A program made the position numbers and the translations under genes. A model generated the notes under the pieces. The model ran no database searches. It worked only from the letters and a program-made list of their open reading frames with translations, and was not told where the DNA came from. Positions 7,969 to 49,000 of a DNA stretch of 64,000 nt are shown here, piece after piece. Origin of the DNA: Liolophura sinensis (lineage: Eukaryota; Mollusca; Polyplacophora; Chitonida; Chitonidae); the NCBI RefSeq assembly GCF_032854445.1, contig NC_088300.1, positions 68,606,984 to 68,670,983 on the forward strand, given 5' to 3'. Positions within the stretch are counted from its first letter, which is position 1. Each line of letters begins with the position of its first letter.

Positions 7969-7969
7969 C

Positions 7970-10599
7970 GGGACCACATAGTCAGCCACCATAATCAGTG
8001 ACAGACATGATGTCGTCATAACCGTCTCCCAAACTTCTACAGCAGTCATGCATTTGAGAATTGGATATAATATACACGGAAACTCACTTTGCACACAGAG
8101 CAATCAGATAGACGTGACTGAATTCCCCTGAATTCCCCTGTTATATATTGGGCCTATCTATCCCAGATCAACGTATGTCCATTGCACTCAAATCCTTATA
8201 CGAGTATATTCATCGTACAGAGCTATTATCATCTTTCTACACATTACCATGCATTGTTCAATGACTCAATTCAGATTTCTGCCTTTTTTGATGAATTTTG
8301 ACGCTTGACTTAATGTTACGCTTCGCAAAGGGTTAGGTGTATAGATATAAGCATGTAATGAAAACATATGACAGCAAAAAGCATGTAAGTTGAAATAAAG
8401 AGATTAGCTTGGCAGTGACATTATGTTTGGTGAACGCTTCTGTAATTGTTTCGCCAATGTTTTGTATCTAGAATTCAATGAAACAAAACTGAATATAACT
8501 TCCAATATTTTAATATTCAAGAAATTTTCATTATGTTGGATATAAAAAGCATATTAATATACACATTATCTATTTTAATTGACATTCAAGACAATTGAAA
8601 AGACTTTATTATATCAGTCATAAATATATAATGACATGAACATATAAAGTACAATGACACTTTGATGGGAATACATGGATGTATTCAAATGCAAAACTCC
8701 ATTTCAGCAAAATTTAGGAACTGTTTTACTTACGGCATGGTTGTTTCTGTATACTACTTTGTTCAATTTCTTTCATTCCTCTTTATGTTTGTAGATTCCA
8801 TTCAGTCAAAATTACTAAAATTCCCAATAATCTATACTGTTTTCGTTATTTTCTAAAGCTCAACAAAACTGTTGATATCTGCGGTATCTTTCAATAAGAG
8901 GAGCCGTCAAGACAAACATCGTCACAGAAGGTGATAAATCACTGGCACTAAATTCTGCAGATAAAACCCTAGATGAAGTTTAATAACAGTCCTGTCAAAC
9001 TTTATCAGTAAAGAGACACCACCGTCCACAGTTCATATCGGCTGGCCGCTCCGTCTGTTAGTTTTAAAACTGATCCATCCAGGAATAAATGACGGCCTCG
9101 AGCCACGAAACAAAACAACACAGATACGAAATATCCAAACAACTATAATATCGTGGACAGCGTCTACTCTGTAACTCACTCCAAAATCTAAACGCCTCAT
9201 TTATAAAGACAGCTTTACACATTCACGAGGAAATGTTTTGATGTTTGACAGATTTAGGGGTCTATGCATATGCCAAGTTTATCTCTATTTTATGAAGTAT
9301 TTGGATGCTAACACATTTAAAACGAAAGAAGGAATGATTTGTGGCCAATGACACCTCTGGATTAAAAGCAAAAAAAACCTTTTCATTTTATAGTCAATGA
9401 GTATGCAAAATATCTTATATTTTTTTCTTACAAATATGAAATTTATTACCCCTAAATACGCCTCTGATACCAGATATTTAGCAATATTTTGCCCGTTTAC
9501 GTCTAAAAAAATTTGGTAGCCAACTTGATTGAGTTTTCCATTATATCTTAATGTCATTGCATGGAAATTTATCCCAGCACACAAACTACGCATGCGCCAT
9601 TGATGCACTTGAGATTAAGAATTTCCTGCGAATTGTGTTTGAAGCACAATGCCGATATTGGTTGGTAGGCCTATACACTATAAATTTCGATACCGTTATT
9701 TTCCACGTAGTTAAAATATATCTGTTTTTGCTGTTTTGAATAGAAGTGAACATACACACACACGTGGATGTTACCTTGGAGACAAAATGCTATAAACATG
9801 TAACTTAACTTCCAGCAGTAACAGTTACAAAAAATCGTTGTCATGCTAGGTTGCAGATGAAAATGCAGAGTGCACGTGGTGACATGACATAGTACCATGC
9901 AAAAGTTTTTTTACTTTTACTTGTTCAATGTTACTAATTTATTACATAAATAATAAAGTAAATCATTGCACTTGTGTATAACTATTATGCCAGTCCACTG
10001 TAGTAGATTTGACAGAAGATCGATATCGGTGAGTTACCTCCCTTGTAAGTTATCAGTGAGTCAGAGGCGGCAAATCTCCGCTAAAGCCTTTGATGTTTTA
10101 ACCTTTAATCTGTGTTATGACATGGTTGGCCATTTGTAAGATAAACTAGCACATTGCACCTGTGGCCTACCTTAACCTGAACGTCAACCCTAGATTAGTA
10201 TTAGGCGTGGTTACTTCGTGACATTTGTGATCAATATGCCCTACTATCTGTGAGTTTAAAGGCTTATAGAAGTCTTGTTTACAGCCGATATACTTATCTG
10301 TTACCTATGGCCTTTTATGTTATATGTATACCATTTCCATGGCTGTTCAAACCAACCTCACAAGAGTTGCTTCCAGTTGAACCAATATATTAACTGACCA
10401 ATCACAGTGTGGCTTACGTCTTTAGAACCGGAAACAGAAAGTGCGTTTTGGGAAACACAGCCAGAAAGAAGTACCCAGAATAGGTTCTTCGTCGAGACGG
10501 TCACACTAATATTCCTAACCGTCATCTTATCTGCCCATATATAATTAGGACTCCCGAATGAAGTGCCACATTTCGTATGCTCGATGATTTGACATTTGA
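7970..10599. other. Intergenic DNA, no gene recognised
   Basis: A minus-strand frame at 9285-9608 (107 codons) has no recognisable motif and AT-rich codons; taken as chance. Confidence 0.5.
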
Positions 10600-10740
10600 T
10601 TTATCTATTTGATTATTTGATTATTTGATTGATTCTTGGATTACTCAAGAATATTTCTCTTATACAACGGCGGCCAGCATTGTGGTAGGAGGAAACTGGG
10701 CATAGCCTGGGGGAAACGCACAACCATTTGCAGGTTGATG
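10600..10740 (-). mobile_element. SINE family A, 5'-truncated
   Basis: Expanded ATTTG-type tail followed by the core as far as the AACCTGC block; the tRNA-like head is missing. Confidence 0.75.
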
Positions 10741-11449
10741 GGTTTCCTCATCGACATTTGTGTGTCGACAATATGATGGTGATATTTAAGATCCATTTTT
10801 ATTATTTCTAAGCAGTCCGACTCATAGGTACTTTACAATAACGAATATTATGCAGTCACTTTGATATTGTAACGTGATTGGTCGTCTTTTTGTATGTCGT
10901 TTTTATAAACCATTTAATCAATGGAACAACTATACTATCGATTACTTCTGATTTGTTCATTCACAAATTAAAAGGAAAAGTAATGGATTGAAATTATGCT
11001 AGCTTTTGATGGGAGAAGTGTAAATAAGCTCGATACACGTAAGGGCTATCGCCATTTGGTTGAAGTGTTTGATCGTCGGTATACACCTGGTACGCAGTTA
11101 CGTAATAGAACGAGGGGCTTTCTGTTACTGCTAACCAGGCGTATAACGACAGCCAAACACTCGATTTCTCGTCGCACGTAGTCCACTCCCAAACGGTCAA
11201 AAGGCAAAACAGGATATAGGTGACGAAACCAGTAACAGCGTGGTCCTCAGAGTATAAGATTACTTGCTTCTGATGGCGGTGCTTTCAACTGTCTCATTGT
11301 GTGCGATTTTGCTTGTTTTGAATTGCAATATCTCGGTTGTGCAGCATTCCAAAAATACAAAGGTATGCCAAAAAGCATTGTGACTTCTTGTGAGTTACTT
11401 TGTCGATGCATATACACATGTGGTATAGTGCTGTGTTTTTTTTCCCTTT

Positions 11450-12480
11450 ACAGTCAGTGATGTGCTACAGCGTAACACTAACCCTGTGTTTCTGTCCAGA
11501 GTGATGCAGCCTAATACTAATCCTGACTTCTTTACAGTCAGTGATGTGTTACAACCTAATACTGACCCTGATTTTCTTTACAGTCAGTCATGTGTTACAA
11601 CCTAATACTGACCTTGATTTTCTTTACAGTCAGTCATGTGTTACAACCTAATACTGACCCTGATTTTCTTTTACAGTCAGTCATGTGTTACAACCTAATA
11701 CTGACCCTGATTTTCTTTACAGTCAGTCATGTGTTACAACCTAATACTGTCCCTGATTTTCTTTACAGTCAGTCATGTGTTACAACCTAATACTGACCCT
11801 GATTTTCTTTACAGTCAGTCATGTGTTACAACCTAATACTGACCCTGATTTTCTTTACAGTCAGTCATGTGTTACAACCCCCTTACTGACCCTCATTTTC
11901 TTTACAGTCAGTCATGTGTTACAGCCTAATACTAACACTGTGTATCTTTACAGTCATATATCAAAACCTAACACTAATTCTGAGTTTCTTTACAGTCAGT
12001 CATGATACTGACTCTGTGTTTCTTTACAGTCAGTCATGATACTGACCCTGTGTTTTTTTACAGTCAGTCGTGTGTTACAGCCTAATACTGACCCTGTGTT
12101 TCCTTACATTCAGTGAGGCGCTACAACCTAACACTACCGCTGAGTTTCTTTGCAGTCAGTGATGTGATAAACATCTCTTCATAGTCAGTGATGTGCTACA
12201 ACCTAACACCACTCCTGAGTTGCTTTGCAGTCAGTGATGTGATAAAAATCTCTTCATAGTCAGTGATGTGCTACAACCTAATACCAAACCTGTCTTTCTT
12301 AATAATCAGTGATGTGTTACAAGCTAACACTACTCCCGAGTTTCTTTGCAGTCAGTGATGTGATAAAACCCACTACTAACCCTGTGTTTCTTTATAGCCA
12401 GTGCTGTGTTACAACGTAACACTAATCCGAAGGTTCTTTACAGTTAGTGATGTGTTACAATCTAACACTAATCCTGTGTC
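11450..12480 (+). repeat. Tandem array, about 47-bp unit
   Basis: About 20 copies of a unit with CAGTCATGTGTTACAACC, TAATACTGACCCTGA and TTTTCTTTACAGTCAG. The central copies (11580-11880) are nearly identical; the right third is degenerate and contains a longer higher-order form with GTGATAAA. Confidence 0.93.
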
Positions 12481-12484
12481 ACAA

Positions 12485-14257
12485 TGGTCACAATCTCTGC
12501 CGATTTCCAATTTAATATCGGGATATTATGGGTGGGGCAGACCAGAATGGCCAGAGTAAATGACGAAGTTTGCACGGGTGCCAGTGACATATGTCATATT
12601 GTTGGAAGGTTGTCTCCCGAGAAATGTTAGACTTACACGAGACAGCACCTCCGACAGCTTATCGCCACCATTGGAAGTGGGGGGATATAGAAAATTCCCT
12701 GTCTGAGGATAGCTTAGAACCAGCACTTTGTGTGACCTCCTTTACATTAGGTTTCTTTAAAACTAACAAAGTTGCAATAAAATTTTAACAATTACATGTG
12801 TAATTGCCTTATTATACAAATTTATCTCGAGCAGACATTTCTTAATTATTATCCGTTACATCCGTCAGTTAATGACAGCTTTAAAAATCTAAGCTGCATG
12901 CGGGCAAAGTTTATGACTCTTTCGTAACGATTTCATCAGAAAACCAATGAAAATTTTTTTGCTAAGCGAGTGTAAGATTGAGCACAACATGAAACAAAAT
13001 TTATTCTTACCACGCTCTTACAATCGTAATGAAGGGAATGTCTAAAATTGTAAATTGAAACTAGAAAATTGAAGATAAATAAATACTATTATACCATTTA
13101 TCACGGACTTACGAGTGACCATACAGTGTACAATCGTCGCTGATCGGCATGGTTTTTCTTGCTGTGCTGATGTCTTTTATAACTTAGATTCCCCTGATGA
13201 AAACATTGTGCACCTCTATATATTTTAAAGTATTCTACTGGATGTTTAAAAGGCAAATTTTGTGATGTCTTTCAACCGCGATATCGCAGTTATTACTGAA
13301 ACCCAATGGTCCAGTTATTTCCGCTTACCTCATCCCAACCCTGTTTTGCGTTTGAAACCAATGGTGTCGTAAGAATTCGTTATTTCTCGAGTTACGAAAC
13401 ACGTCAGCAAAATAATGGGCGGCCGATTAGGCCTGTTTTCTTCTCAGGCTATATTTTTTGTTGTCTTTTCTTCTAATGGCAAACAGTATACAGAAGATTT
13501 CCGTACAATACATTTGTACATGGACCGATCTAGGTCCAGTACCCACACTATGACACCCTTTCGGATAGGTATATACCTCTTGACCCGCATGTGGGCAAAG
13601 AGGAGTGCCCCGGGGCTCTTGACACCCGTCATCTTATACCCTTTAATCGGATCCTTTTCCTGTCTCGTACACACAGACCTCCAGACGTGGCGTATTTACC
13701 CACACAAGAACTTATGCATCAAATAACATCTCGCCCTAGACATCACGAAACCTGGGTGGTATTTGCAAATGAAATGAAGATCTATATATAAATGAATTGC
13801 CAATTATGAATTGTCTATTAGCCATTAATATTTACATTTTATATCATTTTTTTTTAATTTTTTTTTTAAGAATTTTTAAATATTTTATAATGTTACATTA
13901 TAAAAATATTTCTTATGAAAATCAATGATAAATAATTTTTAGAAAATAGCAATCTTACCTTAAAAGTATAAAATCTGGTCGAGCTTAATTCGACTTTTTG
14001 ATGTTTTTGTATCCATACTGCATACTATATTTATTTATAACTGTTTTGTTAATCTCATGAGGCGAACATATGGAATGCTAATGAGATGATGATAAATCAT
14101 GAAATTAAGCAGAGCTAATGCAGTCGAAATAAGCCCTGGAAACGTTCAAAATAGTGCCGTTAAGAAAAATGACCAAGTCGAAAGATAAGTATGAAATCTA
14201 ATGCTGTTTTGATTTGTGTTTGAAGAACACAATCAAAAAGACACGAAATTTCTTCTG
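12485..14257. other. Intergenic DNA with two GC-richer patches
   Basis: 12510-12730 and 13400-13740 are richer in GC than their surroundings and open in more than one frame, but no family, start context or splice pair is convincing. 13800-13930 is extremely AT-rich. Confidence 0.4.
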
Positions 14258-14352
14258 CTTTCCTCCCACCATAATGCTGGCCGCCGTCGTATTAGTGAAA
14301 TATTCTTGAGTGCGCCGTAAAACACCAATCAAACAGATAAATAAATAAATAC
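14258..14352 (+). mobile_element. SINE family A, 3' fragment
   Basis: Plus-strand core end (TTTCCTCCCACCATAATGC, then GCCGCCGTCGTATTAGTG) and AAAT tail. 5'-truncated. Confidence 0.75.
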
Positions 14353-15261
14353 TTTTAAAATCTGTTTCAGAAAAAAATAAATTTAAAAGAAAGAGTACTT
14401 TTAAAAGGTTCGTGCATAAATGTGAAAATGTTCTATGTTATCATCAGATTTATTCACTGATGTGTTTATGTGATTCGACTTGATATACAAAGCAATGGAC
14501 ATAATTTTCTCCTAATTTTAAAACACTTTATCCATTTATTGATGCATTGGGTTTTAACGCCACACTGATTAATTTCACAGTTATGTGCACAATAATGGCC
14601 AAGCAAATCAAATCGACGGACGGCGAAAGAAACTCATGCACGAGGTGCCGAACAAAAAAATAGCCCCTTATGGAATGGCTGATAAACCTCATGATAAAAA
14701 GCCGCAGCTACTTTAACTAACATTTTACCGGCATTGCGTCTACACTCGTTTACTTAGCTATCCATATTGTAATTCAATATTCATGAATTGAAAACAAAAG
14801 AGCAACTTTTAACGGATGTAATAACTATATATTTTACAGTAATAGCTTTATGGCTCAGGGACTGTGACTAAAAGTTGCTACATTGTTTGAATGGAAACAA
14901 CTTGTCAGAGAATTCAAATAATGGAAATAAAGGCCGAATTTCTTCAAACATAAACGGTCAACAATAAATTTAAAATTTTTGAATTAAACTGGCTCTGTTT
15001 AAATTCTTATGGATTCTTTGATTTATTGTCCATATTGGGTTAGAAATCTGGAAAACTCTTTCAAGAATTGTTCTAGTTCAGTCATAGCTTAATATTGTAG
15101 CAATCAGCTAATTTTCTTTCAATACAATTAACCATATATATAGGCCTACACCATTCAAAAACAAATTGGCTATGTTCTGTATAAATGACGTAATATTCTA
15201 TATATTTTATTACATCAACAGTTCATTTAAAATACTGAGACATCGGACGAGGTTAAGTGTA

Positions 15262-15317
15262 TAATGCTGCCAGCTTTCATATCAGTGAAATATTCTTGAC
15301 CAATCAAATAATTATAT
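15262..15317 (+). mobile_element. SINE family A, short 3' fragment
   Basis: Contains AATGCTGCCAGC, GTGAAATATTCTTGA and CCAATCAAATAAT with an internal deletion; it lies just past the donor of the 15.5-kb exon. Confidence 0.55.
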
Positions 15318-15334
15318 CATTAAATCCTACTTAC

Positions 15335-15569
15335 ATTGGGCTTCTGTGATGGAATCCTTTCCCTTAGCATCTTCCCCTCCGCGGGGATTTGTCACATTCT
15401 CCCGTTTCTCTGATTTACCGGGGTCCCGTGAGTCGGGGTTGCTCAGTCCTCGTGCTTCCGACCAGTAGCCCGGGGTCTGATGTGAGTTGCAGTAAGAAAA
15501 GCCCGTATGATGTCCCGCCGTATCGAACATTCCTTCTGCCAGCATGGGTGTTAAGGGCAGCATGTCCAT
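15335..15569 (-). CDS. Candidate first coding exon, unknown protein
   Basis: An open frame of 78 codons begins with ATG in a good context (GCGATGG), 27 bases or so after an in-frame TGA, and ends at a consensus donor, gtaagt, in phase 1. The peptide begins MDMLPLTPMLAEGMFDT and is polar and disordered, ending rich in Lys, Glu, Asp and Gly. GC and CpG content are much higher than around it. I do not recognise the family. The layout, a short hydrophilic first exon behind a CpG-rich promoter, resembles developmental transcription factors, but that is only a guess. No following exon was found downstream before the channel gene. Confidence 0.45.
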
Positions 15570-16420
15570 CGCTGGGGAGATGTGACCAACTGGATGGTAT
15601 CAGCAGAATCCATGAGAAAACACAGTGACGAGAAACATTACGTAATGACCAAACGTGTATCAAGGATAGAGAATTCACAAAGGGGAGGAAAAAAAAAAAA
15701 CGAATGTTTTTGCTCTACCGTGAAAAATTCAACAAATGAAAGTCAAATTTCGTAACTGAATAACGCTCTCGCATATACTGCTTTTAAAGCTTTCCCCGTC
15801 CAACCACGTGGGCTTGGGTATCTTCGACTGTCCCTAGCCGATATGACATCGTCAGTTAAAGTGGGTAAAATCTCTTTTAAGGTCGCCGATCGGGAGGGCG
15901 GTTGGGGCCCCGGGTTATAGGAAAAGACCGCTAAAAACAGTCGATCTCCGTGCGGCGGGAGATCGTGAATGGAAAAACCGATCACCTGAAACCAAGCCCA
16001 CTCTTAAGCAAACAGTTTCGCCATTTACGATAAGGCTGAGCCCCACCCCCCGTAATAGGCGACTAGCTGTGTTTTCCTAAGGTACAATACCGGCCTAATC
16101 TTTGACTGGGCCCTCAGGTGCACTAACACAAACACGGCCTCACACTTCACGCTGTTGACAGCTGGGCTAAGCCCACTCGCCTCTCACCCAATGCGATCAT
16201 CACACTTTGCTCATTTGGGGATTTTGTGCCGAACACCTAGAGGTATATACCTGTGTATACCTCGCCATAGGGGTAGACGGGTCTTTAACCGCCCGTAATC
16301 GCTGGGGCAATGAAAGCAATGAAAGATATCGACTTGAAACAGTACCTGGCTGAGAAAACACCCTCTCTTTCAATGATGATGTTTGCGGTTTTAATTGTGC
16401 GCTTAATTATGACCACACAA
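15570..16420 (-). promoter_or_regulatory. CpG-rich putative promoter and 5' UTR of the 15.5-kb exon
   Basis: This stretch is clearly GC- and CpG-richer than its surroundings. Reading toward the exon it has a palindromic E-box CACGTG (15805-15810), a TATA-like TTTAAAAG (about 15781-15788) and about 200 bases of possible 5' UTR. TAATTA-type motifs lie at 16390-16420. It could also be an enhancer or unrelated conserved non-coding DNA. Confidence 0.35.
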
Positions 16421-17995
16421 GCCAGTGTTTGAAATAGAAGTGGTTATGACGATTCAACCATGTGGATCTAATGCTGCGGTGAAGGCTCTCCTGTACAGTT
16501 AAAAAGGCCATATGGGAAAGCTTGGGCAAAAAAATCCATCTTCACTCAGTAAATTTAGTTCTCTGTATTCACCAATAATAGCTCAAATTATTGCCATACA
16601 GTAAACATCAGACTCACAGCTGTATAATTTAGTGTTAAAATGGCCCTAATATTTGGAAAAGTCATAATGCTATATCTGCTTAATAAATTATTAGAAATTA
16701 CCCATTTGGAACGGTAAAACGGTAACAGACGAGGCTAATATTTTGTGAAAGGTATAATTATTTGCATTGATTGGATTTGTACTGCTTGATTTTTATTTAC
16801 CAGAGCTCTCCGGTATATAGCTTCTTTAGAACACAGCTGTTTACTTACTTTGGTTTTTATCATCTTAAGTTTTCTTTCTCTCTGAATCTCTATAGTAAAG
16901 CTTACAAGTGTTACACTGAAAACGCAAGTTTTGTATAACCGCAATTACTTATATCAGGACGAGTTATTAAAGAAATAAGTAAGTAAATAAATCAATAATT
17001 ATACCGGAGAGATACATGTAGACTTGCCATTTCTCTATCGATATCTCTTAAGACAAAAAATATTTTAACCGCTTTTTTGTCACAAAAAAAAATTGAAAAC
17101 TGTAGTTACTACCCGTATATTGGTTATATATGAATATTAACTTTCGAATATGCCTGAGAAAACTATACTTACCTCATTACAGGGCCAAAAAAAAACAAAC
17201 AACAAAAACAGACCGAATTTTGTAATGAGAAAAGCACCAAATCAATCAATTACTCGAGATTCATCGTGTACATGTGTAGTGTGTGATTGTCAGATATATG
17301 CATTAGACAGATAGAGATAAATATTTATACATCGCTATAAGAACCAGTATACATATACAGTGTACATGTATTTAAGGTACGAACATGTGGGGTATGCCAA
17401 ACACTGATACACGTGTATATATATATGTCTGCATATATCTAATTCATTTACAAATTATCATGAGTATAATAAATCCACTTAAGAAAATGTTGACCAAAAC
17501 ACAATTTTTCAGTATGGGTTTGTATAAAAAGTAAAATGTACATGCATAGATGTCATAACATATAAACCTAGAATTTACTACATGTGTGTAGTCTACATGA
17601 CTTGCATGCAGGCTGTATATAACATGAAAGAATATAAGATGAAATTTTTACTGTTACAAATGCTCTTTGTTAATACTGTATATTTCCTTCATTGTAATGG
17701 GTGTGTGCTACTTTCACATGTACAAGACTATGTACATTCAATTTCGAAATGACGATGTCGTATGCTAAAATTCCATAAGCGAATATTATATTTGAGCAAA
17801 ATAGTTGTGAAAGTATAAATGCCTATTTTCTTATTTTAAACTACATGTCTTAAATTTTCATGAATTAATTATTTGATTTCTATCTATGTATTGTCTGTTG
17901 CTTAACGCCATATACACAGAGCGCACCTCTGCATGGCACAATAAGTTTATTAAGTAACACTTTCAGAAGTACATTCTATAGGCTTTCTAATGATT
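16421..17995. other. AT-rich DNA, nothing recognised
   Basis: No gene or clear repeat. Confidence 0.55.
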
Positions 17996-18213
17996 CGTTT
18001 GATTTATTGATTTATTTGATGGGTGTTTTACGCCGTACTCAAGAATATTTCACTTAATATGGCGGGAGGAAACCGGCACAGCCAGGGGGAAACCCATGAC
18101 CACCCGCAGGTTCCTGACAGACCTTCCCACGTACGGCCGGAGAGGAAGCCAGCATGAGCTGGACTTTAACTCACAACGACCGCATTGGTGAGAGGCTCCT
18201 GGATCATTACGCT
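17996..18213 (-). mobile_element. SINE family A, nearly complete
   Basis: Tail to the GTAATGATCCAGGAGCC block, with a 15-base deletion near ACTTA-TATGG. The head A box is lost. Confidence 0.82.
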
Positions 18214-18502
18214 GCTGATACCTTTGATGCCGACACAATGCTAAACATTAAGTGAAATATGGCAAAGATAGTTGATCTAGTCCAAGTAATGCATATGGCG
18301 TCATATTATAACGAGGAATTAAATACAGATGGCCGTCGGTATTAAGAGTTAATCTACTCAGGGCAGTGACATACTCAGGAGCATTGACAAACGCAACAAA
18401 ATCAGATACGTGTGATGATTTCAGCAGGAATATATCTAACACTGTGTATGTACAGACCTGTCACATTGTCAGTATCACATTAGACTTATGAGTGTCATTA
18501 TA

Positions 18503-18622
18503 CCAGCAACCAGCGGATGGTCGTGGGTTTTCCACATGGCTCTGTACGGTTTCCGCCGTAGGGGTGGTAGGGGTGTTGTATAAATGAAATATTCTTGACT
18601 ACGGCGTAAAACACCAATCAAA
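18503..18622 (+). mobile_element. SINE family A, diverged 3' part
   Basis: Plus-strand copy with the GGATGGTCGTGGGTTTTCC and GAAATATTCTTGACTACGG blocks and AATCAAAAAC tail. Confidence 0.65.
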
Positions 18623-18624
18623 AA

Positions 18625-19700
18625 CAAAACTATAAAAACTGAATTGCACTAGCAGGTACACTGTATATTTCCTTTTCTTAATGGTGTTAAAGAACGGTCG
18701 AATAGAAATAAACAACTCTTTTATCTTCATTTTCAATGTTGAGACCTCCCGCTGATATTTATCATTTAGGGTACTCATGTGTTCGTTAAAGAAGGTCTCG
18801 AAGGCGTATGTGACATCACCTAAAAAATTGTTTGCATTTTTTCCTTGCGGGTATGTCTGAACATTGAGATGGGAAATTGTTCACACTTGAGCGGCAATCC
18901 CGCTTATGTATTGTGAGATCAATTTAGCGTGTTCTATTTTCTCATGAAATGTCGTAAATTTCGGAACGGTTTCTGAAGAATTGAGATTTAGTAGTAATTC
19001 AGTTCATGCATTGTCCAGGTCTCAAAATACCACAGAACATCGGCACGTTGCTTAATTCCGTCGGAGGGCTTATATCCGGCAATAAGGATTCATATTCTTT
19101 TACTATTTCGTTAAACGTTTTAATCAGTAACACCGAGATGAATTCGATTTTAGCAATTTTCTTGTGATAGTTATTTGCATTAAAGTCTTCAATGTGAAAA
19201 AATCTAAGACGGCCATTTTAAAATACATGTTTGTGATGTCAGATTTTTGCAATATAATTTTTCTGCATTTGTCTTTCCACTTAAATCCTACTAAAAGAGC
19301 GGTATTTTACATGTTTGCAATGTACTATATCACACGCGGTGGAGGTTTTATATACAGACATGCATATACAGAGATGTTAAAGCTTATGAGGGTTCCTTGT
19401 TAATATATTTCACTTTAGTTAATTATACATATATCATGCCATTTTAAAACTATATATATTTATAAAATTGCCAAACAAACCCTGGTTAAAAACAACAGTG
19501 CCAAACATGTAGCTGGCTTTTGCACAAAAAGCCAAAACATTAACCGGTATTCCAATTGTTATTGAGCGAATTTGCAATAATATTAAAAATATGTATCCGA
19601 ACTAAAAATCTACCTTCGACCGTGGGTTGGATTTTTACAGATACAGCTGTATATATTTTTACAATAAATTAATAAATTACTGTTTCCGTCATATACATGT
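18625..19700. other. AT-rich DNA, nothing recognised
   Basis: The frame at 19164-19403 is AT-rich and without motifs. Confidence 0.5.
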
Positions 19701-19814
<114 letters not shown>

Positions 19815-19943
19815 TCGTATAGATCATGTGTATACTCCAAGGTAAACATGAACACATTCTGCTGTATGAAAAATATAGTTCAGGGAAAATGTGCATAGCC
19901 TAGGCGAAACCCCACCACTTCGACAGATTCCAGAAAAAGAATT

Positions 19944-20098
19944 GTATTTATTATTTATTTATTTGACTGCTGTTTTACGCCGTTCTCAAGAATATTTCAC
20001 TCATACGACGGCGGTCAGCATTATGGCGGGAGGAAACCGGGAACAGCCCGGGGAAATCCCACGACCATTCTGGTTGCTGGCAGACTTTCCCACGTACA
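19944..20098 (-). mobile_element. SINE family A, 5'-truncated
   Basis: Tail and core to the TTTCCCACGTAC block. A degenerate piece with similar core wording lies immediately before it at 19877-19930. Confidence 0.75.
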
Positions 20099-29133: not shown

Positions 29134-29139
29134 TTTATT
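29134..29139 (-). terminator. Candidate polyadenylation signal AATAAA for the channel gene
   Basis: AATAAA on the minus strand, about 360 bases past the stop codon. It is a plausible 3' end for the channel mRNA, but the hexamer is common in AT-rich DNA. Confidence 0.35.
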
Positions 29140-29495: not shown

Positions 29496-32400
29496 TCACA
29501 AATCGGTTTGTTCCCCCGTGACCTTGCTCTGAAGTTCTCTTACTGACTGGTGCACGGTTTGGAGAGTGTCTGTAAGCTTTGCCTCCAGTGTTTCCAGGCG
29601 GCGCGACACGGCGGCAATTTGATGTGAGATGTCGTCCTCGTTAGTGTTGCCGTCAACGGTTATGTTGACCAGCGGTACCTCTACGTACCAGCGCTCATGC
29701 ACCAGCGCTTGGACATCGTCCGCATCCCCACTGTCGTCGGAATCCGGGGACACCCGTCCGGTGTCTACATCTTCGGGCTGCAGAATGTCTCCTTTCTTGA
29801 TTCGGATATGACTAAAGAGCGAAGACGACCAAGGCAGCATTGTTTCAATTTCCAGTCCGAGTCTTACGGAATCAACCCTCCAAGTGACAGTCTGGTTCAC
29901 TCTGATATTTTGATAAGAGTCATTCATCATGGCAATAAGCAGGTTAAGCAAGATAATTGTTGTGAGGATCACGTACAAAATGTGGAAGACTTTTAGCGGG
30001 ACACTGCTTCTGCCAACTGCGGCTAAACCTGCCTGTACCTCCCCTTCGAACAGCCAGTCCATTCCGATCATGGTGTTAAACGTGGTGAAGATTGTGTCCA
30101 GGGCGTTGGGATAGAGGCTTGCCACTCCATCGGACACCTGGAACAAAACATGGAAGGCGAAGGAAAATGCTAGCAAGATGAATACATAGACAAAGATGAA
30201 CCTGAATACGTCTCGGACAATCATAAGCTGGAGCATCTTCCAGAAATAGTGCACAGGTTTGAAACCTCGAGTGAAGGAAATGCTGAAGAGCCATCCCAAG
30301 AGGAGAGAAAGGGCGAGGATGTAGTCGTGGAACTGAAACTGCACGTGATACAATATCACCCAGATGATCACCAATATCGCGTAGCAGACCCCGGTCACGA
30401 TCGGGAAATAGCTACTGACCATCGTCTGGAACGCCACAAAACCTCTCTGTCCCTTGACCAATTGGGAACGTCGCGAAAAGTCACTTGTTAGCGTGTAGCG
30501 AAACAGCAAATAAAGCATGTACAGCAGAATAATTCCAGGTTCAATAGGAACCACCACGTACATGGCTATTTGGATGGCGTATAAGTCAGACGCATTTTCC
30601 CTCTGCTTCGACAAGAGAGTTATGGTTATGGCACTAAACGCTGCCATGTATATCAAGTGTAGTAACATTAACATGCTGTAAGTCCACGCACAAATGTCAC
30701 CGTAGATTTTCTCTATCTGTCTTAGAGTGGGAATATCAAAGGTCTGTCCTGCTTTATGGGGGTCCTCCATACTAACCAACCATTCCATACAGGACACCGA
30801 AGGACTAATTTTGCTTGAACCTCGGCCACTTGTAGCAGGATTGCTTGTCTGTGGCGTCAGATGTGTAATATCCATTCGTGCTTTTCCATTCTTAGAAGTA
30901 AAATTGACATCAGGCATCATAAGAATTTTGTTCAGTACATGTTTTGCGCCCAGTCTAGAAGCTAGAGTTAATACCGACAAACCGTCTTCGTTGGATATAG
31001 CGGCCGTCAGATGATGGACGGCTTTCCTCTTGATGTGCCGGTAGAGGTATTTGTCGTCGTCGGGATAGATAATCTCCTTACAGAGGCACCACCATCTTAC
31101 CAGCTCCTCAAACAAAACATCCATCACGTCTAAATATTGTTTGGCGTTTTCTGCATCCTTCGCTATGGCGACGGTGAGGAGATGAAACACCGTATTACCA
31201 TCCTTGTCCTGGGCTGATAGATCCGCTCCGAATCGTATCAGATTTTTCGTGGTCGACGCAAATCCCTGAAGAGCCGCTAAGTGAAGAACCGTCTCTCTGT
31301 TGTTGTTACGCTCATTGATGTCTGCGTCTCTCGTCATTGTTTCGAAGATATCTAACATTGTGTCCAACACCTCCGGATGATTGGGGCGCACAGCGGAATG
31401 TAAAGGGGTATTCCCATCGGAGTTTTTCTGTTTGAAACTCAAACCACGGAATTCCCACAGAACTTCACAACTAGCGTGAGCGGCTGCTTCATGTAGCGCG
31501 CTGTTTCCATTCGCATCTTGTTCATGAAGAGAGTCCCAAGCGTGAGTCTTGATCATATAATCCATCAACATTGCTACAGACGACGGTCGCGTATTCGCCG
31601 ACCTCGCCATGACGTGGAGAGCTGTATCGCCCCTGGAGTTTTTGATGTTCGCCTTGGCTTTACACTGCAACAAAACAGAAATACAGTCACAATGACCGTG
31701 CAAACAGGCAATATGGAGTGGAGTATCGCCAGTCTTGTTTTGACGATCAACTCCAACCTGTTGGTGAAAACTTTTAATCACCTCTTCGTGGTCTTTGATG
31801 GCGGCGTGATGGAGCATGGTGTTGCCAGCAGGGTCGCTTTCAGTTGGATCTAATCCCAGAGATATCAGAAACTGGACCTTTTCAGACGCGCCCAGGGAGG
31901 CTCCGATACACAGTGGAGGTTTTCTTGTAAGTCTGTTCGCCATTGACACCGGCGCGGACTTATCTGCTAAAAACCTGACCAGTGTGACGAGAGTGTCATT
32001 TCCCTCAGTGTTGATTGCGTAATGCCAGGCTCCGTGGCCTTCATGATTCTTATGCGTGACTTTGGCTCCTCTGTGCAACAACAATTCGACGATGTCAGCG
32101 TTGCTGAACTTGGCGGCCAATGTCAACGGAGTGTCACCGCGCTCGTCTTGTTTATCGATGCAAGCCTTGAAATCCAAGAGAACTCTTGCCACGGCAATGT
32201 GTCCTTCTCGAGCGGCCTGCATGAGGGGAGTTTCTCCGCCTCGGATCTCCATGTTGGCATCCGCTCCATTTTCCAAAAGAATCCTAACTATGTTAGCATA
32301 GCCCAAGGCCGATGCCAAAATAATTGGAGCAACCAAGCCGACTTTCCTTACTTGGTTAACGTTCGCTTTGCCCTCGTTAGCTAAAAGTTTCACTGCTTCA

Positions 32401-33191
32401 GGGTGGTTGTATCTGGTAGCCCAGTACAGTGCGGTGGATCCTTTATCATTTTCAATGTTTGCCATGGCTCCGTTAGCTATGAGAGTGCGGATCACATCCA
32501 CATGGCCCCACCGAGAAGCCCACAGTAACGCTGTGTCGTTTTTACTATTGAGATGATTCACTGATATACCATGTTTGAGGTACAGCTTCACAAGTTCCAC
32601 AAAACCTTGAAAGGCGGCAATGTGGAAGGGCGTAAATGTCCTAGGTCGTTGCCCTACGATCTCCATGGCTGTCTCGTGCAACATTAGACGTCCCTTGGCG
32701 TCTCGATCTGTCGCCTGCTCCAGCACCTGTTGAGCCACATCTACGTTATTTTTCAGTGTTAGTAAGTGTAGAATGTTCCGAGAGGCCACGCTGCCTTTGA
32801 CGACCACTTCAAACTCTTGTGTCTGTAAGGAGGGATGCCCATGGCGGATGAGATACCGCGCTGATGCCTTGGCGTCGTTCTCCACGGCATAGTGAAGAGC
32901 ATTCATTCTGTGGGACGTCAGCATAAAGTCCTCAGTGCCCGTTATTCTCTTGGATCGAAGCTCCCTGACAATCTGCTTGACCATTTCCACGTTGTCGGCT
33001 TTGATTTCCAGTAAAAGCCTATCCCGTATTTCGGCTCCAGCCTTCGATTCGGCTTGGACAGGCGTTTCTTCGATGGCTTCAAAGGCTGCGTTTTGGATGC
33101 CCGACAAAGACCCAGCAATATTGTTGGTAGTGGTGTCCGACGTAATAGCTGCTATTGCGAATTTCGTATTTTTCTTTTCTGCTTTCCGTTT
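29496..33191 (-). CDS. Exon 2 of ankyrin/TRPV-like channel, single long coding exon
   Basis: This 3.7-kb exon codes for residues 47-1277, from just before the ankyrin region to the TGA stop. The acceptor is strong: a T-rich tract then ctacag directly before AAACGG. No frameshift or internal stop occurs, and its higher GC than the surroundings fits a working coding exon. All ankyrin repeats, the channel domain and the C-terminal coiled coil sit in this one exon, so the gene is nearly intronless compared with its neighbour. Confidence 0.92.
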   Translation of the reverse strand, partial: KRKAEKKNTKFAIAAITSDTTTNNIAGSLSGIQNAAFEAIEETPVQAESKAGAEIRDRLLLEIKADNVEMVKQIVRELRSKRITGTEDFMLTSHRMNALHYAVENDAKASARYLIRHGHPSLQTQEFEVVVKGSVASRNILHLLTLKNNVDVAQQVLEQATDRDAKGRLMLHETAMEIVGQRPRTFTPFHIAAFQGFVELVKLYLKHGISVNHLNSKNDTALLWASRWGHVDVIRTLIANGAMANIENDKGSTALYWATRYNHPEAVKLLANEGKANVNQVRKVGLVAPIILASALGYANIVRILLENGADANMEIRGGETPLMQAAREGHIAVARVLLDFKACIDKQDERGDTPLTLAAKFSNADIVELLLHRGAKVTHKNHEGHGAWHYAINTEGNDTLVTLVRFLADKSAPVSMANRLTRKPPLCIGASLGASEKVQFLISLGLDPTESDPAGNTMLHHAAIKDHEEVIKSFHQQVGVDRQNKTGDTPLHIACLHGHCDCISVLLQCKAKANIKNSRGDTALHVMARSANTRPSSVAMLMDYMIKTHAWDSLHEQDANGNSALHEAAAHASCEVLWEFRGLSFKQKNSDGNTPLHSAVRPNHPEVLDTMLDIFETMTRDADINERNNNRETVLHLAALQGFASTTKNLIRFGADLSAQDKDGNTVFHLLTVAIAKDAENAKQYLDVMDVLFEELVRWWCLCKEIIYPDDDKYLYRHIKRKAVHHLTAAISNEDGLSVLTLASRLGAKHVLNKILMMPDVNFTSKNGKARMDITHLTPQTSNPATSGRGSSKISPSVSCMEWLVSMEDPHKAGQTFDIPTLRQIEKIYGDICAWTYSMLMLLHLIYMAAFSAITITLLSKQRENASDLYAIQIAMYVVVPIEPGIILLYMLYLLFRYTLTSDFSRRSQLVKGQRGFVAFQTMVSSYFPIVTGVCYAILVIIWVILYHVQFQFHDYILALSLLLGWLFSISFTRGFKPVHYFWKMLQLMIVRDVFRFIFVYVFILLAFSFAFHVLFQVSDGVASLYPNALDTIFTTFNTMIGMDWLFEGEVQAGLAAVGRSSVPLKVFHILYVILTTIILLNLLIAMMNDSYQNIRVNQTVTWRVDSVRLGLEIETMLPWSSSLFSHIRIKKGDILQPEDVDTGRVSPDSDDSGDADDVQALVHERWYVEVPLVNITVDGNTNEDDISHQIAAVSRRLETLEAKLTDTLQTVHQSVRELQSKVTGEQTDL

Positions 33192-33723
33192 CTGTAGAAA
33201 AAAAAAGAGATTTATTTTTAACAGATATTTTAATGAACATGTAAATTACTGGATCAGAATGAGCGTATTCGACTTTTGATTTTGATGTAAGTACAATAGA
33301 ACTATAACAACACGTAAAGTAACACACAGGGTCTCTCGTGTGTGTGTTAAATCAGGAAATTTACTTCTAACATTAAATTTTTTGGGTTTTTACTTATCTT
33401 ATTGTTATAAGAAATAAAAGGATAAGATGTTTTCTTTTAAATATTTTCCCATTCAGATAGCCTTTCAAATGTGACAGCAAACTGGACATAGGTACCTTTT
33501 CAGGGTTGCTTTTGTGTGCCTATTCCGGTGTGTTTATTTATTTATTTTTGTTTTTGTTTGTTTGTTTGTTTTTTCTTTTCCTTACCTCTCTGATTTCTCT
33601 CAGGACTACGTAGTCGCCATCCGTGGAGGTTTCCCCTGGCAGGGCCGGCGCGGTCCTCGGGGTCAGTCCACTTATGCGGCGCCTGAGCACTCTCCAACCT
33701 GAACGTGACCGGGGTCGGTCCAT
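29496..33723 (-). CDS. Ankyrin-rich TRPV-like cation channel, two coding exons
   Basis: Predicted plasma-membrane non-selective cation channel subunit of about 1277 residues. Residues 110-815 hold about 18 ankyrin repeats, many with the GDTPLHxAA-type core. Six hydrophobic segments follow at roughly 881-906, 920-945, 964-998, 1002-1022, 1041-1065 and 1113-1137, with a pore loop near 1079-1096 containing MIGMDW. The S4-S5 stretch with TRGF and the S6 stretch with YVILT and LLNLLIAMMN are typical of TRPV channels, as is the Trp of a TRP box soon after S6. Residues 1236-1271 form a heptad-like coiled coil, a usual tetramer contact. The coding join is 33723..33586 to 33191..29496, phase 0. The start at 33723 is the first ATG after an in-frame TGA two codons upstream, with G at +4. 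TRPV proteins usually have six ankyrin repeats, so the architecture is unusual. TRPA is the main alternative because of repeat number, but its pore region fits less well. Confidence 0.93.
33192..33585 (-). other. Intron of ankyrin/TRPV-like gene
   Basis: A 394-base GT-AG intron, gtaagg to ctacag, phase 0. It holds T-rich and (TTTG)n-like simple sequence near the donor side and no recognisable gene or element. Confidence 0.8.
33586..33723 (-). CDS. Exon 1 of ankyrin/TRPV-like channel
   Basis: This exon codes for 46 residues, rich in Arg and Ser and probably cytosolic and disordered, beginning MDRPRSRSGW. It ends in GAG before a good donor (gtaagg) in phase 0. An in-frame TGA lies two codons before the ATG, which limits the start. 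There is no signal peptide, as expected for a TRP channel with a cytosolic N-terminus. Confidence 0.8.
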
Positions 33724-34070: not shown

Positions 34071-35017
34071 ACGCGTTAAGACTGAGATAATATTATAAAT
34101 ATTACAGTCGTTAATAGAAGAGTTTTTTAAACTTTGTTGGCCAAAATTTGTAGACTCACCAGCAGGCGTTACCTTTACACTATCGGTTGTTTTCTCTCTT
34201 GGCTTGTTCCTAGATGTTACTGCATGTGTAACCCCCAAATCCGAATATACACCAGTGTACATAGTCCGAACTTATCCGGGTTACTAACAAACAACACGCA
34301 CACGTTTATTCGCTATAGACATACTGTCGTGATATGCAATGGTGTATATGGGTTGAACGGTGCATATAAACCTTATCATACTCAACCATGCTTGGTTAAT
34401 ACTACAAAAGATCTCCAAACCGGTTCGCCGTATATATTCATGTGAAAAGTAGTTTTGGATAGGTTTAAACCTGCCACCATGAGGCCAGCTCAATGAACCA
34501 GAACTGCTATACTATACACTATACTACAAACTTAAATCAGCGTAGGTTAATGTAAAGTCAGGAACAGAAATATCTCACCCCAAAAACGATTGAATGTCGT
34601 TTTTTCACCATGAATATATGAGTCGTGAATATACGAAATAATAATTTTATTCACAAAATTTATTCTTAACAGCCTTCTCTCACTGATAAAAGAGGATTTG
34701 GTACATAGAGATACTCCAGTGTCGAACATTGTGCGAATTTTTTACTCTCTTTATACATATCAAACGCGATAGTCGCGATTATCATGCACGCACGAATGGG
34801 CACTCGAGTCCAAAGAGAGGTATTTAATGTCAAAATAACGCTGACACCGATATGGGTATACATACAACAATAAGGGCATATATACATACGTAATGCACAT
34901 GAACATACATAAAATTCTTCTATATAATACCCACACGTATATAGCTGTGGTATTGCCGACGTGGCATCAACATTCATTGGAAGTCTTATTTTCCTCTTCA
35001 GTTTATCATTCGAAGTA
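34071..35017. other. Upstream of the channel gene, nothing recognised
   Basis: AT-rich; could include the channel promoter and untranslated exons. Confidence 0.4.
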
Positions 35018-35330
35018 CATGTATGTATGCTTGGGGTTTTAACGCCGTACTTAACAATTTTTCAGTCATATGACGACGAGGAGTCATTAGGTGTGTACAT
35101 ATTGTGCGTTTCTTGTGGCAGGGCGAGACACCAGGCGTAACACCCGACCCAGTCACACTGACACCGGGCCAACCAGTCGTGTTTCCTTGCTGTAACCTCT
35201 CAGTGATGAGCACCAAGCCTGGTAGCAGCAATTTTTGGTATGTCTTTTGTATGCCCCAACACAGGTTTGATCACTGGATCTCCCGACCTCGACGCGGACG
35301 CTCTAACCATTAAGCCAAAGAAACGGTCGT
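35018..35330 (-). mobile_element. SINE family B, minus strand
   Basis: From the right: tRNA-like head with TGGCTTAATGGTTAGAGCG (A box) and GATCAAACC (B box), core, the GTCATATGAC block and a CATACATACATG tail. Full-length in outline. Confidence 0.7.
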
Positions 35331-43000: not shown

Positions 43001-46000
43001 AAGTTAACCTTAACATGTAATGTTCATGTTACAATTAATGCATGATCAGACAGTTTAATCATCAAGTCTGAACTGTCAAAACTGTTTGACTGTCAGCATA
43101 AAGACTATTAGTACACATGTTATATTTATTTATTTACTTATTTTCTTGGTGTTTTACATGTACTCAAGAATATGTCACTTATACGATCATGGCCAGCATT
43201 ATGGTGGGAGGAAACCAGGCAGAGACCACCAAGAAACCCTATACATGTTATGATACATGCACATTTCTACTTGGCCAGATATCACACATATCAGGCATAA
43301 GACAAAATACTCTGGTTTTCATTGGACAGCAACGGTCACATGGCATACTTTTATATCTCCCTATAGCATACGTGTCTGCTGACTAGGTTATCGCCCTACA
43401 CTCTGTTGTGACAACCATGGTGACATGACTGAAGTGATTTGCTTATACATCAGTCTTTTGAGCTGAATTGATGGGTCTTTTGCAGGATGAATTCATTACA
43501 TGATTTGTCAGTGACAGGTAAGAAAAATATATATGGTGACAATAACCCTCATATTGTGCTTTTCTCACACTCCGCCCAATATGAGACTTACTGGCACCAT
43601 ATATTTCATATACTTCCTTGTTGGAAGAGTTATCTACCTTGGTATGGAATGTGACAGCAGCAGAAAGGTTGGTCTTCTGACAGCTGATGTGTATCTTGTC
43701 TCCAAGCTCCACCCAGGGGACGGTGAGAATGGAACGTGCGTACACACTAGGCAGTCCAAACACATACTCCTCATCATGCTCAAGTAACCTTAAACTAACT
43801 GCAACAAGCAAATGTTCATAAATGAGTTTATGTGAAAAGGAGTTTTAACTTGCAAACTGCACAGAAATGTTTTAGTACGCATGTAAGAAGCTGTTCAGAT
43901 GTTTTAACAAATAAAAGGCTTAACCAATTCATGAATGAATGAATGAATGACTACTGCAAACGTCAATAGGCAATAATTTGGCCATATCATTACAATACCC
44001 AGTGTAAACTTAACCAATATGAAGATTGGCAATATTAAGTAATTCCTTGCAGCTTTGATGAAAACAAGCCTTAAAAGTTCACATCTGGTGTGAGGTAAAC
44101 AGACATATCATATCTGAAAACCCTATCTAAATAATATAACTTCTTTCTTATTTACATTGTCTTTACAAATGGACTAATAGACATAATCCCTTCCACATCC
44201 ATGAAATATGCCAGTTGGATAAAAAGGTTTTCTCGCACTACCAAAAGATTTCCTTGAATTTGCACAAATCTGCCTTGGAAATACATGAAGCTTCTTATTT
44301 ATTTATTTATCTGAATTGTGTTTTACGCCATACTCAAGAATATTTCACTTATACGACCGCGGCCAGCATTACAGTGTGATGTAAACTCCCAAAAAATCCA
44401 CGACCTACCATAGTCTGCTGCCAGACCTTCGCACTAATGACCATACTGGAAACGAGCAAGAGCTGGACATGAACCGCATTGCTTTGAGGTTCCAAGGTCA
44501 TAGCGCCACCCTGGAATGTTAACCATCTTGGTCACAAGGACCCCTATGGATTCTAAGAGCTTCGTCGTTAATTGAGCTCTAACGAGTTACTACAATTCCA
44601 CTGTTGTTTTTCTGTGTTTCAATTTAATCTTGGCCTGTAAAACTTCACCTTGATTTATTTATTTATTTGATTGGCGTTTTACGCCATACTCAAGAGTATA
44701 TCACTTATAAGACGGCGGCCAGCATTATGGTGGGAGGAAACCGGGCACAGCCTGGGGGAAACCCACGAGCATCCGCAGGTTGCTGGCAGACCTTCCCACT
44801 TACGGCCGGAGAGGAAGCCAGCATAAGCTGGACTTGAACTCACAGCAACCGCATTGGTGAGAGGTTTCTGGGTCATTACGCTGTTCTGGCATGGTAACCG
44901 ACTGAGCCACGGAGGCCCCCAAAATTCACTTTGACATGCATAGAAAACCTTAAAATGATATTTTTTTGACCCACATTTAGGGGGATGAGTACATCAGAAC
45001 CATGGAAGATATGAGATTTTGAAAACTTTAGGTGCGATTACAGCACAGTATTTTGAATGCTCTGCCCAACTTACTTTTGCCCACCATGACCAGTCCTATA
45101 GACATGCCCATGAATTTGGACTTTGTGTATATGGAGGCATTCATACACATCTGTTTCTCCGGACACTCGAAATAAAATGCTGAAACTGAAACAAGAAAAT
45201 CATGTTACAGATCTACACAGTACAAGCTATTTATTGATTGATTTATTCACTTATTGATTTATTTGTTGTTTAATGCACTATTGACAAACTTTTCAGTTAT
45301 ACAACGGTTGTCAGTTGGATGGGTGAAGGAGACAACAGTGCCCGGGGTAAACCACCGACCACTGGTATGTGACTGATAAACTTTCTCAGGTGCGATGTAC
45401 AGATATGCACATCATATTGGTGGAAGACAAGTGATCTTGAAGCAATATTAGACAGTGCAAACATCCACTGAAGTGTCACTGCATCCTGTAAGCAGGGGCA
45501 CCAATGCAATTTAATATTTCTATAAATATGAAATATCTGGATTTCCTTCACTGATAAAAGTGATATTTTACTTCGTTAAATATCACATTCATTAGAGCAT
45601 TTTGATATTTCACACCCAGACATCATAACAGAAATTTCACTTTTTTTAACGTCTGAATCTGAGCAGTATGATGTTATATAATACAAGTTTAGTCATGTTT
45701 AGTATTGTTACATGCAACAAGACATGATGTCATACAAGACGTCACACTATATCATACAAGACATCACACTATATCATACAAGATGTCACACTATATCATA
45801 CAAGACGTCACACTATATCATACAAGACGTCACATTATGTCATACAGGACGTCACACTATGTCATACAAGACATCACACTATGTCATATAAGATGTCACA
45901 CTATTTACATGCCTGTGAAGCCCTGAAGTTAAAACATTCAATATATAAATGTTAAAATACACAAAATCATAATACTATCAAAAGTATATATAATAAACAG

Positions 46001-49000
46001 AAAATTACAGGGTGAAAATAAAAAATATTATAAATAATAATAAAAATATTGCTCTGGCAAGAGATGGAAGTGTTAACCTATGAGATGCGAAGCCTTTCAC
46101 TGTCCACTATCCTCTATTCATCAAAGCTATCATCAAAACCCAAAAGCATATCTACATACATGTACAGCTGTATGGTGTCAATTGTTTATGATGCTACATG
46201 TCAAATTTTCATGACATAAAATGATTCTATTCCATTGACCTTGTATTCAAAGACCTGATGGATTTAAGACTTCCATAAACCGCCAAGTCAATTAGCACAA
46301 GTCAGAAAAAACATTAGGGTTTGCAACTGTGACAGCTAAAGCTTATGTGTACCTTATGAAGACCTTCATCCATGCAACTACAACTGTACACTATATCAAG
46401 GCCCATTTTTATTAAAATGTCTTCAGATTTAAGTCCTTTCAAACTGCAACAATTAAGATATTTTGCTCTCGAAAGTTTGAAATTTGTACATTGATTCTTT
46501 ACTGCAAGACAATGTACTAAATCGCGATTTTGAGTTTTTTTTCCCTGTTCTGAGTTTGAGTTTTTAAGCACTTGCAACTAATAACTTAAGTCTTAAGATG
46601 CTTGATAAATATGAGCCCTGAGCTGAACAAACAAGACAGTCATCTCACTGGGTGGATGATGGGAGACTTGCTCCGCACAGTACGTCAGCTGTACAGGCCC
46701 ACTGCTGGAGCTGGCTGACACCCGAGATGTCTCCGTCTCTGTCTGCTTATGCCTATCTGCAGCTTTCTCCCTGCTGGGCGCCTTATCCCCCATCCCATGC
46801 AGCTTATCATCAGGTTTGGACACAGGCTCTGGTTTGCCTGTGGTCGCCTGTGTAATTTCCTGCACGGGCTCACAGTCCTGAATCTCCTTCGGGGACAGCC
46901 GCCAAGAACAGTGGAAGGTTTCCCCAATGATTGGGTTGTAAGGCTTCTTAGCCACGGATCCCTGCAAATGGAGTTGTAATCTTAGCATCACTATGGCACA
47001 GTGTAACCAAACATCTACAATTTATCCCTGACAACTACATCTATAACACACGCAATTGTGAGCTGCAGCTTGCAGTACTGTAAGTCACTCATTCTGTCAG
47101 TCTTTTAACACTACCTTTTAACATGGGCCATTCAGCGTAACAACATGGGGTCAGAGTGCAAGATCCATTTTTCACTACAACCCATTCCCCATTGGTGTTA
47201 AACACAGTCCTGAAGAAATTTTCATTTATTTCATAAACCAAACCAAGCTAAATGACGTAGACATCACAAAACCACCAAGATCTAATTTGCCGTGAGACTT
47301 CTATGGCCATACAACAAGTGTTTCCTTGTAAAACTTTCATCTACTGTTGCCTGTTTTGGGGCAAACTGATAAAATAAAACATGAATAAGAGTTTAAAAAT
47401 GTACCTGTCTGCCAGCATGGAAAGATGTAAGGTACCACTGAAGGACAGCTAGCATACGACTCTCGGCGCTTGGTAAATCTGGTATTCTAAATAAACAAGA
47501 TAAAAATCATTTTATGGACAGTCCAGAGTATGCTGCAGGATTATCTTGCAATGTAGCTTACCACTTTAATAATCTTCACCAAATTGAATGAATGCCACTT
47601 TTAAAATTTCAAAGTCATTCATACCTACCAGGTATGTAAATTTGAATCCCACAAGGCATAAAACGTTAGGATTGGTGTTTGAGTGTAACAGATGTGGGCC
47701 ACTCGTTACTCTTCTTCAATTTTCTTCAGTACTGCTGTCCATACTTCTTTTTTTGCAAGTGCTTGGAATGAACTACCACACTTTGGCAAGTTATACTGCT
47801 GACCTTTTCACCATTAGGCATACACGTCAGTACTGCTGTCCATACTTCTTTTTTTGCAAGTGCTTGGAATGAACTACCACACTTTGGCAAGTTATACTGC
47901 TGACCTTTTCACCATTAGGCATACATGTACATGTATATTATATTGGGATAAAGCAAGTAGTCTCCAGAAAACTTCATATAACACTGCACGAACAAGCACT
48001 GACCACCGCTTATTGCCACCCAGGCCTCAGGCTGTCTTTCAAGAAAATATACATGTGCAAGACTCTGAAGGAAACAAAACCTTGGTTCGATTCCACAAAT
48101 CCATTTCTGACGTTCTGTCAAAATCTAAAAATATTCTCATAAAGCCTTACAAGTTTGGGTATTAGCAGTTGAAATTTTGAGATGGTCCAGGAATTTTTTT
48201 CTGAATTCCTAAATAGGCTCCAAATCATTTTCAAACTTTAAAATTTGGACTTAAAGTCAGAAATGGCTTTGTGGGATCGGTTCCCGGTGCTGGACGACAC
48301 TAACCTAAGAAAGATGTCTGGGTGAGCCATGCAATCAGCAAACAGCTCTAGCAGCGACCGGCGCTCCAAAATAAACGTCGGCAGAACCACCTGAAAGATG
48401 CAGTAGTAACACTGAAGACTTGTGGTACATGTGTATATGTTCAACATTATGCACACCTTAAACCCCCGCATACAATTTAAATACTGTCACATGAATCTGA
48501 GTATGACTAAAAAAACAAAAAAAACTAACACACACACAAACCCACAAACAGTCTATTTCAAAGGGGGGCTGTTCCTCAAAGGGGTCGTAACGTTATGTCG
48601 GTCACAAATACCAAGGCGCCCTATGCCATCAGTATGCGACGTCATGGTGATTAGGCCAGAGTAACGTTACGACCCCTTTGAGAAACAGCCCCCAGTTGAA
48701 CAGTAAGAGAATTGGCTTTATCCTGTGTATGTAGATTTGACTATGGATTTGATGGAATGAAGGAATGATTACAAGATATCAGCAATATTTACTACATTGT
48801 AGTAAGAGTATGTTGATCCAGCAATCACCACCTGAGTCAGACAAAAATCCATATGTACATATTCATGTGATTTTAGGTTCAAGTAGTCCTCAATGCATTG
48901 TAGAAGCACAAAATAGTCCGAATCTGAATTATTAAGCGAAAATACCATAATTCTTCAACCTTTTCACATTTGAAAGAGAAACTTACAGGGCCATCTATGC

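Follow-up and report, generated by a model that had tools for sequence, protein, structure and literature searches.

A TRPV-like channel half behind a 19-repeat ankyrin arm, encoded by a two-exon gene of the chiton Liolophura sinensis

An intron-poor gene on the minus strand

In the 64,000-nucleotide stretch of Liolophura sinensis DNA that we analysed (the window), a minus-strand gene of two exons occupies positions 29496-33723, and its spliced product is a protein of 1277 residues, here called the window protein. These limits are identical to those given by an earlier, sequence-only reading of the same DNA. The parts of the gene are:

33586..33723, minus strand: exon 1, 46 codons counted from its ATG, with a GT donor in phase 0
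33192..33585, minus strand: GT-AG intron with a T-rich acceptor tract
29496..33191, minus strand: exon 2, 1231 codons plus a TGA stop (29498-29496)
29134..29139, minus strand: AATAAA, a candidate polyadenylation signal, 356 bases beyond the stop

The ATG at 33723 is preceded by an in-frame TGA, and exon 1 ends in GAG/GTAAGG, which is spliced, in phase 0, to the acceptor that precedes 33191. Exon 2 lies within a minus-strand stop-to-stop frame of 1249 codons (29496-33245); for an open run of 1231 codons, log10 P is -32.7 at the background stop frequency of 0.0594. The GC content of its three codon positions is 0.530/0.374/0.548, for which a TRPN exon of the same genome, at 0.517/0.365/0.539, served as the yardstick; the background GC of the window is 0.368 overall (positions 1001-20000). 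Exon 2 carries both the ankyrin half and the channel half of the protein, and the open frame, the codon-position GC and the clean splice sites span both, in agreement with the earlier view that the two halves share one uninterrupted exon and do not result from an assembly join. This is an intact, real, intron-poor animal gene.

A Pfam scan of 123 other frames in the window gave two matches to oxysterol-binding protein and one to a family of unknown function (0.00096). The oxysterol-binding protein exons (43446-43844 and 46596-47021, minus strand; the first scored 28.5 bits, below the cut-off of 28.9) lie on the same strand as the channel gene. Over the window, no Rfam family reached threshold and ARAGORN found no tRNA, including at about 35000-35320, a stretch that resembles a tRNA-derived short repeat.

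The ankyrin arm and the channel half

The number of ankyrin repeats serves to mark the families of TRP channels and is linked to how they gate: the repeats act as a tether in NOMPC and as a sensor in TRPA1, and form a compact skirt in TRPV. Counted by register, the window protein has 19 such repeats, at residues 100-817, and Pfam marks 11 Ank_2 stretches in it. The long, TRPA-sized arm of the sequence-only reading thus stands, with its count of about 18 corrected to 19. We also tested each repeat separately against a profile made from 15 Ankyrin-1/2 repeats alone: 13 of the 19 were individually significant (no more than 5 of 500 shuffles as good), whereas of 19 control segments taken from the same protein (about residues 861-1220, mutually overlapping) 0 passed. 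AR2, AR10, AR11, AR15, AR18 and AR19 were not significant singly and are counted because of their spacing. The arm can be divided as follows:

31632..33032, minus strand: AR1-AR13, residues 100-566, on the N-terminal side of the part that could correspond to the six-repeat domain of TRPV
30879..31631, minus strand: AR14-AR19, residues 567-817, aligned to TRPV6 and to a TRPV-like gene on contig C3 of the same genome (described below)

The layout of AR17-AR19 is that of AR4-AR6 in TRPV: GNTV.H, a long insert, then GL.VLTLA. Local alignments put the ankyrin domain of the C3 gene best at residues 638-821 and the TRPV6 AR4-5 core alone at residues 679-718; the whole TRPV6 ankyrin domain had its best alignment outside AR14-19, at residues 429-555. 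A one-to-one mapping of the last repeats onto the TRPV ankyrin domain is a suggestion.

The channel half and the tail contain the following features:

29925..30695, minus strand: six-helix channel domain, pre-S1 to S6, residues 879-1135, from hydropathy, Pfam Ion_trans and matches to TRPV entries in the PDB
30261..30272, minus strand: TRGF at the end of S4, residue 1020
30198..30251, minus strand: S4-S5 linker as long as in TRPV (18 residues, counted from the Gly column up to F), with His at the Gly column
30054..30068, minus strand: pore motif IGMDW (IGLGD in TRPV3)
29874..29885, minus strand: TRP box TWRV, which includes the conserved Trp (residue 1150)
29499..29642, minus strand: coiled-coil-like C-terminal heptads, about residues 1230-1277

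Ion_trans scored 24.6 bits against the whole protein, just below the cut-off of 25, and 29.1 bits, above the cut-off, at the same place in a six-frame search of the genome. The NCBIfam model TIGR00870 (trp) matched the channel half with an E value of 1.1e-27, its 96 bits being far under the curated cut-off of 498.75.

The TRPV-type marks picked out by the sequence-only reading (TRGF at 1020, LLNLLIAMMN in S6 and the Trp at 1150) are all present, and they differ in how well they discriminate. RGF at the end of S4 was found in 6 of 10 TRPV rows of our alignment and in 0 of 5 TRPA, TRPN and TRPC rows (the sixth row is cut there). The TRP-box Trp sets the window protein apart from TRPA only, because TRPN and TRPC share it. 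An S4-S5 linker of 18 residues is common to the window protein, all 10 TRPV rows and one unplaced row from contig C1, whereas the linker has 17 residues in all 6 TRPA, TRPN and TRPC rows (3 of 3 for TRPA); three alignment methods gave the same outcome, and the independent TRPV rows number fewer than ten because two are near-identical copies. This difference in length is a character that emerged from the present analysis. The Gly of this linker is quoted as 98% conserved in PMC9242649; at this column the window protein has His and both C3 genes have Ser.

In its sequence, the C-terminal tail resembles a coiled coil: in a simple heptad count, as distinct from a coiled-coil program, the a/d occupancy of the tail was matched by 0 of 500 tail shuffles. 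Structure prediction, which had been proposed as a check, was of no help, the AlphaFold2 model of 1200 residues computed without an alignment being too poor for use (mean pLDDT 38.1).

Relatives and placement

With the whole protein as query, solved-structure matches were led by ankyrins (2e-83), and NOMPC (4.7e-67) and TRPA1 (1.9e-33) both ranked above TRPV6 (5.3e-25), because the ankyrin half drives these scores. For the channel half, the best 60 of 173 solved-structure matches were all TRPVs, with E values, among the matches listed, from 1.7e-21 (TRPV3) to 4.8e-13 (TRPV4). Bit scores in a 16-row panel, where the fragments are of unequal length, were 80 for TRPV3, 61 for TRPV5, 59 for TRPV6, 54 for TRPV1, 50 for the Inactive-like gene of this genome, 46 for Nan, 37 for Iav, 30 for each of the C3 pair and for TRPC5, 27 for this genome's Nan-like gene, 26 for TRPA1 and for NOMPC, 25 for its TRPN, and 16 and 8 for its TRPA rows. 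The structure matches and panel scores together make TRPV the nearest family in sequence, and the contrast of TRPV3 with TRPA1 and NOMPC, along with the TRPV-length linker, bears out the proposal of a TRPV-like pore; the Nan-like gene, itself a TRPV, scored no better than TRPA1. A search for relatives of the channel half in viral contigs gave 5 pattern matches, 0 of them confirmed, and a padloc scan of it returned 0 families.

The channel half is present in full once in the genome (609 Mb in 632 contigs); behind it, at E values of 0.0046 and 0.0088, come two of the genome's own TRPV-like genes (7 of 7 candidates scored). The ankyrin half has 19 other matches, at 24-39% identity. Besides an Inactive-like gene (1.7e-52 to the PDB Inactive entry) and a Nan-like gene, which groups with Nanchung at 96/93 in the 17-row tree panel, we found a TRPN at C7:4762566 (1.2e-143 to NOMPC), at least three TRPA places, and several TRPC-like places assigned by model position. 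The channel parts of the Inactive-like and Nan-like genes are each spread over at least four exons. The C3 pair (L010 and L011, G000:C3) consists of two single-exon TRPV-like frames of 676 residues that are 94.8% alike and lie on opposite strands, some 175 kb from each other. Both have Ser at the Gly column of the linker, and their pore reads GLDD; we label them TRPV because the best 60 of their 327 solved-structure matches are all TRPVs.

Several other TRP loci showed features of their own. The Inactive-like gene has two candidate S4-S5 exons, possibly alternative (L043, 8651-8884 and about 9731-9874). On contig C1 lies a TRP-like gene pair (L047 and L048, G000:C1:46664407 and 46691718, minus strand) with the S6 sequence LNLLIAQLSDTYQNIQ; in L047 the S4-S5 linker is 18 residues long, and this copy falls in no TRP family by tree, with an end branch of 3.05. 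On contig C7, behind the exon that encodes the pore and S6 of a TRPA gene (L056, 1701-2389), the S6 peptide gave 16 tblastn matches, reading VPILLMNLLVS or near variants, at 41-base steps with one step absent from the listing; this tandem array looks expanded from the TRPA exon, and L055 has repeated S5 pieces too.

Trees were built on S3-S6 fragments rather than on S1-S6 and drawn with TRPN and TRPC as the outgroup, in panels of 14 rows (repeated with a longer TRPA1 row), 17 rows, and 18 and 15 rows. The TRPN and TRPC rows split off together at 100/99 in both 14-row panels, 100/98 in the 17-row panel, and 97/99 and 99/99 in the 18- and 15-row panels, and the window protein fell outside this group. 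The three TRPA rows likewise formed a clade without it, at 100/100 in the 17-row panel and at 100/99 and 100/100 in the 18- and 15-row panels. Within these panels, then, the window protein is not inside TRPA or TRPN, and a firm grouping of its S1-S6 region inside TRPA, named earlier as the outcome that would count against a TRPV-type channel, did not appear in the S3-S6 trees.

Where the window protein does belong is less sharply drawn. Its end branch is long (1.69 to 2.17 overall; 1.86 in the 17-row panel, 1.91 and 2.17 in the 18- and 15-row panels), and no placement of it was starred. The ten TRPV rows formed one group in 2% of 200 bootstrap trees of the 17-row panel, the window protein being left uncounted, and a "TRPV clade" is weak in these panels because these rows are not recovered together. 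Holding the window protein with TRPA, TRPV or TRPN/C gave p-AU values of 0.423, 0.385 and 0.416, and holding it with the four vertebrate TRPVs gave 0.279: none of these positions was rejected. Held with the odd C1 pair, it was 7.46 log units worse (p-AU 0.115), so that a closer kinship with that pair is neither supported nor rejected. When the C3 and C1 pairs were left out, the best tree joined it to TRPA with a support of 13/0. Of the earlier proposal, a TRPV-like pore with a TRPA-sized arm in one exon stands; TRPV proper or an ancestral hybrid does not follow from p-AU values of 0.385-0.423.

A long arm on a probable TRPV-related channel

The window protein resembles TRPV (TRPV3, TRPV1, TRPV5/6; Inactive, Nanchung) in linker length, TRGF, the NLLIAMM of S6, the TRP-box Trp and the arrangement of the last ankyrin repeats. 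It differs in having 19 repeats rather than six, His in place of the linker Gly, GMDW where TRPV has G.GD in the pore, a coiled-coil-like C-terminal tail, and a gene of only two exons. Because the feature of about six repeats fails and the linker Gly is His, we describe it as TRPV-related and unplaced rather than as TRPV proper. With TRPN/NOMPC it shares a long ankyrin arm, a possible tether; it has fewer repeats and a longer linker, and lies outside the TRPN and TRPC group.

We lean, with somewhat better than even confidence, towards a TRPV-related cation channel subunit whose long ankyrin arm acts as a tether or sensor. Four subunits would surround one pore, with the C-terminal coiled coil aiding assembly. 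AR17-19 would pack beneath the membrane in the manner of AR4-6 of TRPV, and the extra repeats, about 13 of which lie towards the N-terminus, would form a curved arm that reaches out into the cytoplasm. Binding of a ligand, or a pull on the arm, might then act through the linker and the TRP helix on the S6 gate, whose opening would admit Na+ and Ca2+. By analogy, our first guess is that the arm may be a tether or scaffold like that of NOMPC in kind, at 19 repeats against about 29, and our second that it may be a chemical or thermal sensor like that of TRPA1. The channel might thus serve the animal as an uncommon kind of sensor for touch or for chemicals.

The reading that we would set next, as plausible if tentative, is that this is a known class, with public-database orthologues named TRPV5/6-like, gamma-TRPV or ankyrin protein. 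It is quite possible that orthologues sit unnoticed in databases, and a gamma-TRPV clade confined to molluscs (PMC13402157) and new lophotrochozoan TRPV clades, TRPVC/D (PMC9664204), are described, in passages that state no repeat numbers. The repeat counts in this literature point the other way: published figures are 2-6 for TRPC and TRPV, 14 for TRPA and 29 for TRPN, with 28 for scallop TRPN (PMC8539334), and 14-17 for TRPA (PMC8749608). Titles and abstract openings, among the papers listed, yielded no TRPV with many more than six repeats, and the available portions of PMC9664204, PMC9242649, PMC13402157, PMC8539334, PMC8004665, PMC11526382, PMC13143021, PMC8749608 and PMC6150509 give no TRPV count above six. 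The four scallop TRPVs tabulated in PMC8539334, moreover, are 650-1023 residues long. The TRPVL fingerprint is not matched: by its published consensus description, the one form in which we compared it, TRPVL has NFIA and an Ala in the TRP box (PMC9242649), whereas the window protein has NLIA and Trp. TRPVL is given as a sister to TRPV found in annelids and cnidarians only (PMC8749608).

A lineage-specific TRPV retrocopy that became fused behind a long ankyrin array, or grew one, with its deep position reflecting fast evolution, is possible but on the unlikely side. Such an origin would fit an exon 2 that is intronless over 3.7 kb in a genome where the Inactive-like and Nan-like channel parts are divided among several exons, the second intron-poor TRPV-like pair on C3, the single-exon scallop TRPV in a table of PMC8539334, and the long branch; it sits poorly with a genome that holds no close parent copy, and with the low identity of the other matches to the ankyrin half.

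A highly derived TRPA would have inherited its arm and coiled coil, and its TRPV-like pore would be convergent or a state retained from the TRPV/TRPA ancestor. TRPA1 does have a long ankyrin arm and a C-terminal coiled coil, and the window protein shows the 14 or more repeats that mark TRPA (19 by register, 13 significant), a number in or above the quoted range (14, PMC8539334; 14-17, PMC8749608), together with a coiled-coil-like tail, the unsupported sister position in one tree and a p-AU of 0.423. It has neither the Trp-less TRP box nor the short linker of TRPA, however: its linker is one residue longer than in all three TRPA rows, its TRP box has Trp where TRPA1 has Arg (PMC9242649), its scores to TRPA1 and to the TRPA rows of its own genome are low (26, 16 and 8 bits), and it lies outside a TRPA clade at 100/100. 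We consider this origin improbable. Slightly more doubtful still is a separate TRP class near the TRPV/TRPA split, in which the long arm was kept or regained and the six-repeat domain of TRPV is a shortened ancestral arm. Finally, an assembly join or a pseudogene is very unlikely, since the frame is open and the splice sites clean across both halves, and codon-position GC speaks against it as well.

If the preferred reading of a TRPV-related subunit is true, a natural protein in which a TRPV-type pore is combined with 19 repeats and a coiled-coil-like tail would uncouple the arm from the pore, and would let one ask whether the stimulus is set by the arm or by the pore. It would also bear on the order in which long and short ankyrin arms arose.
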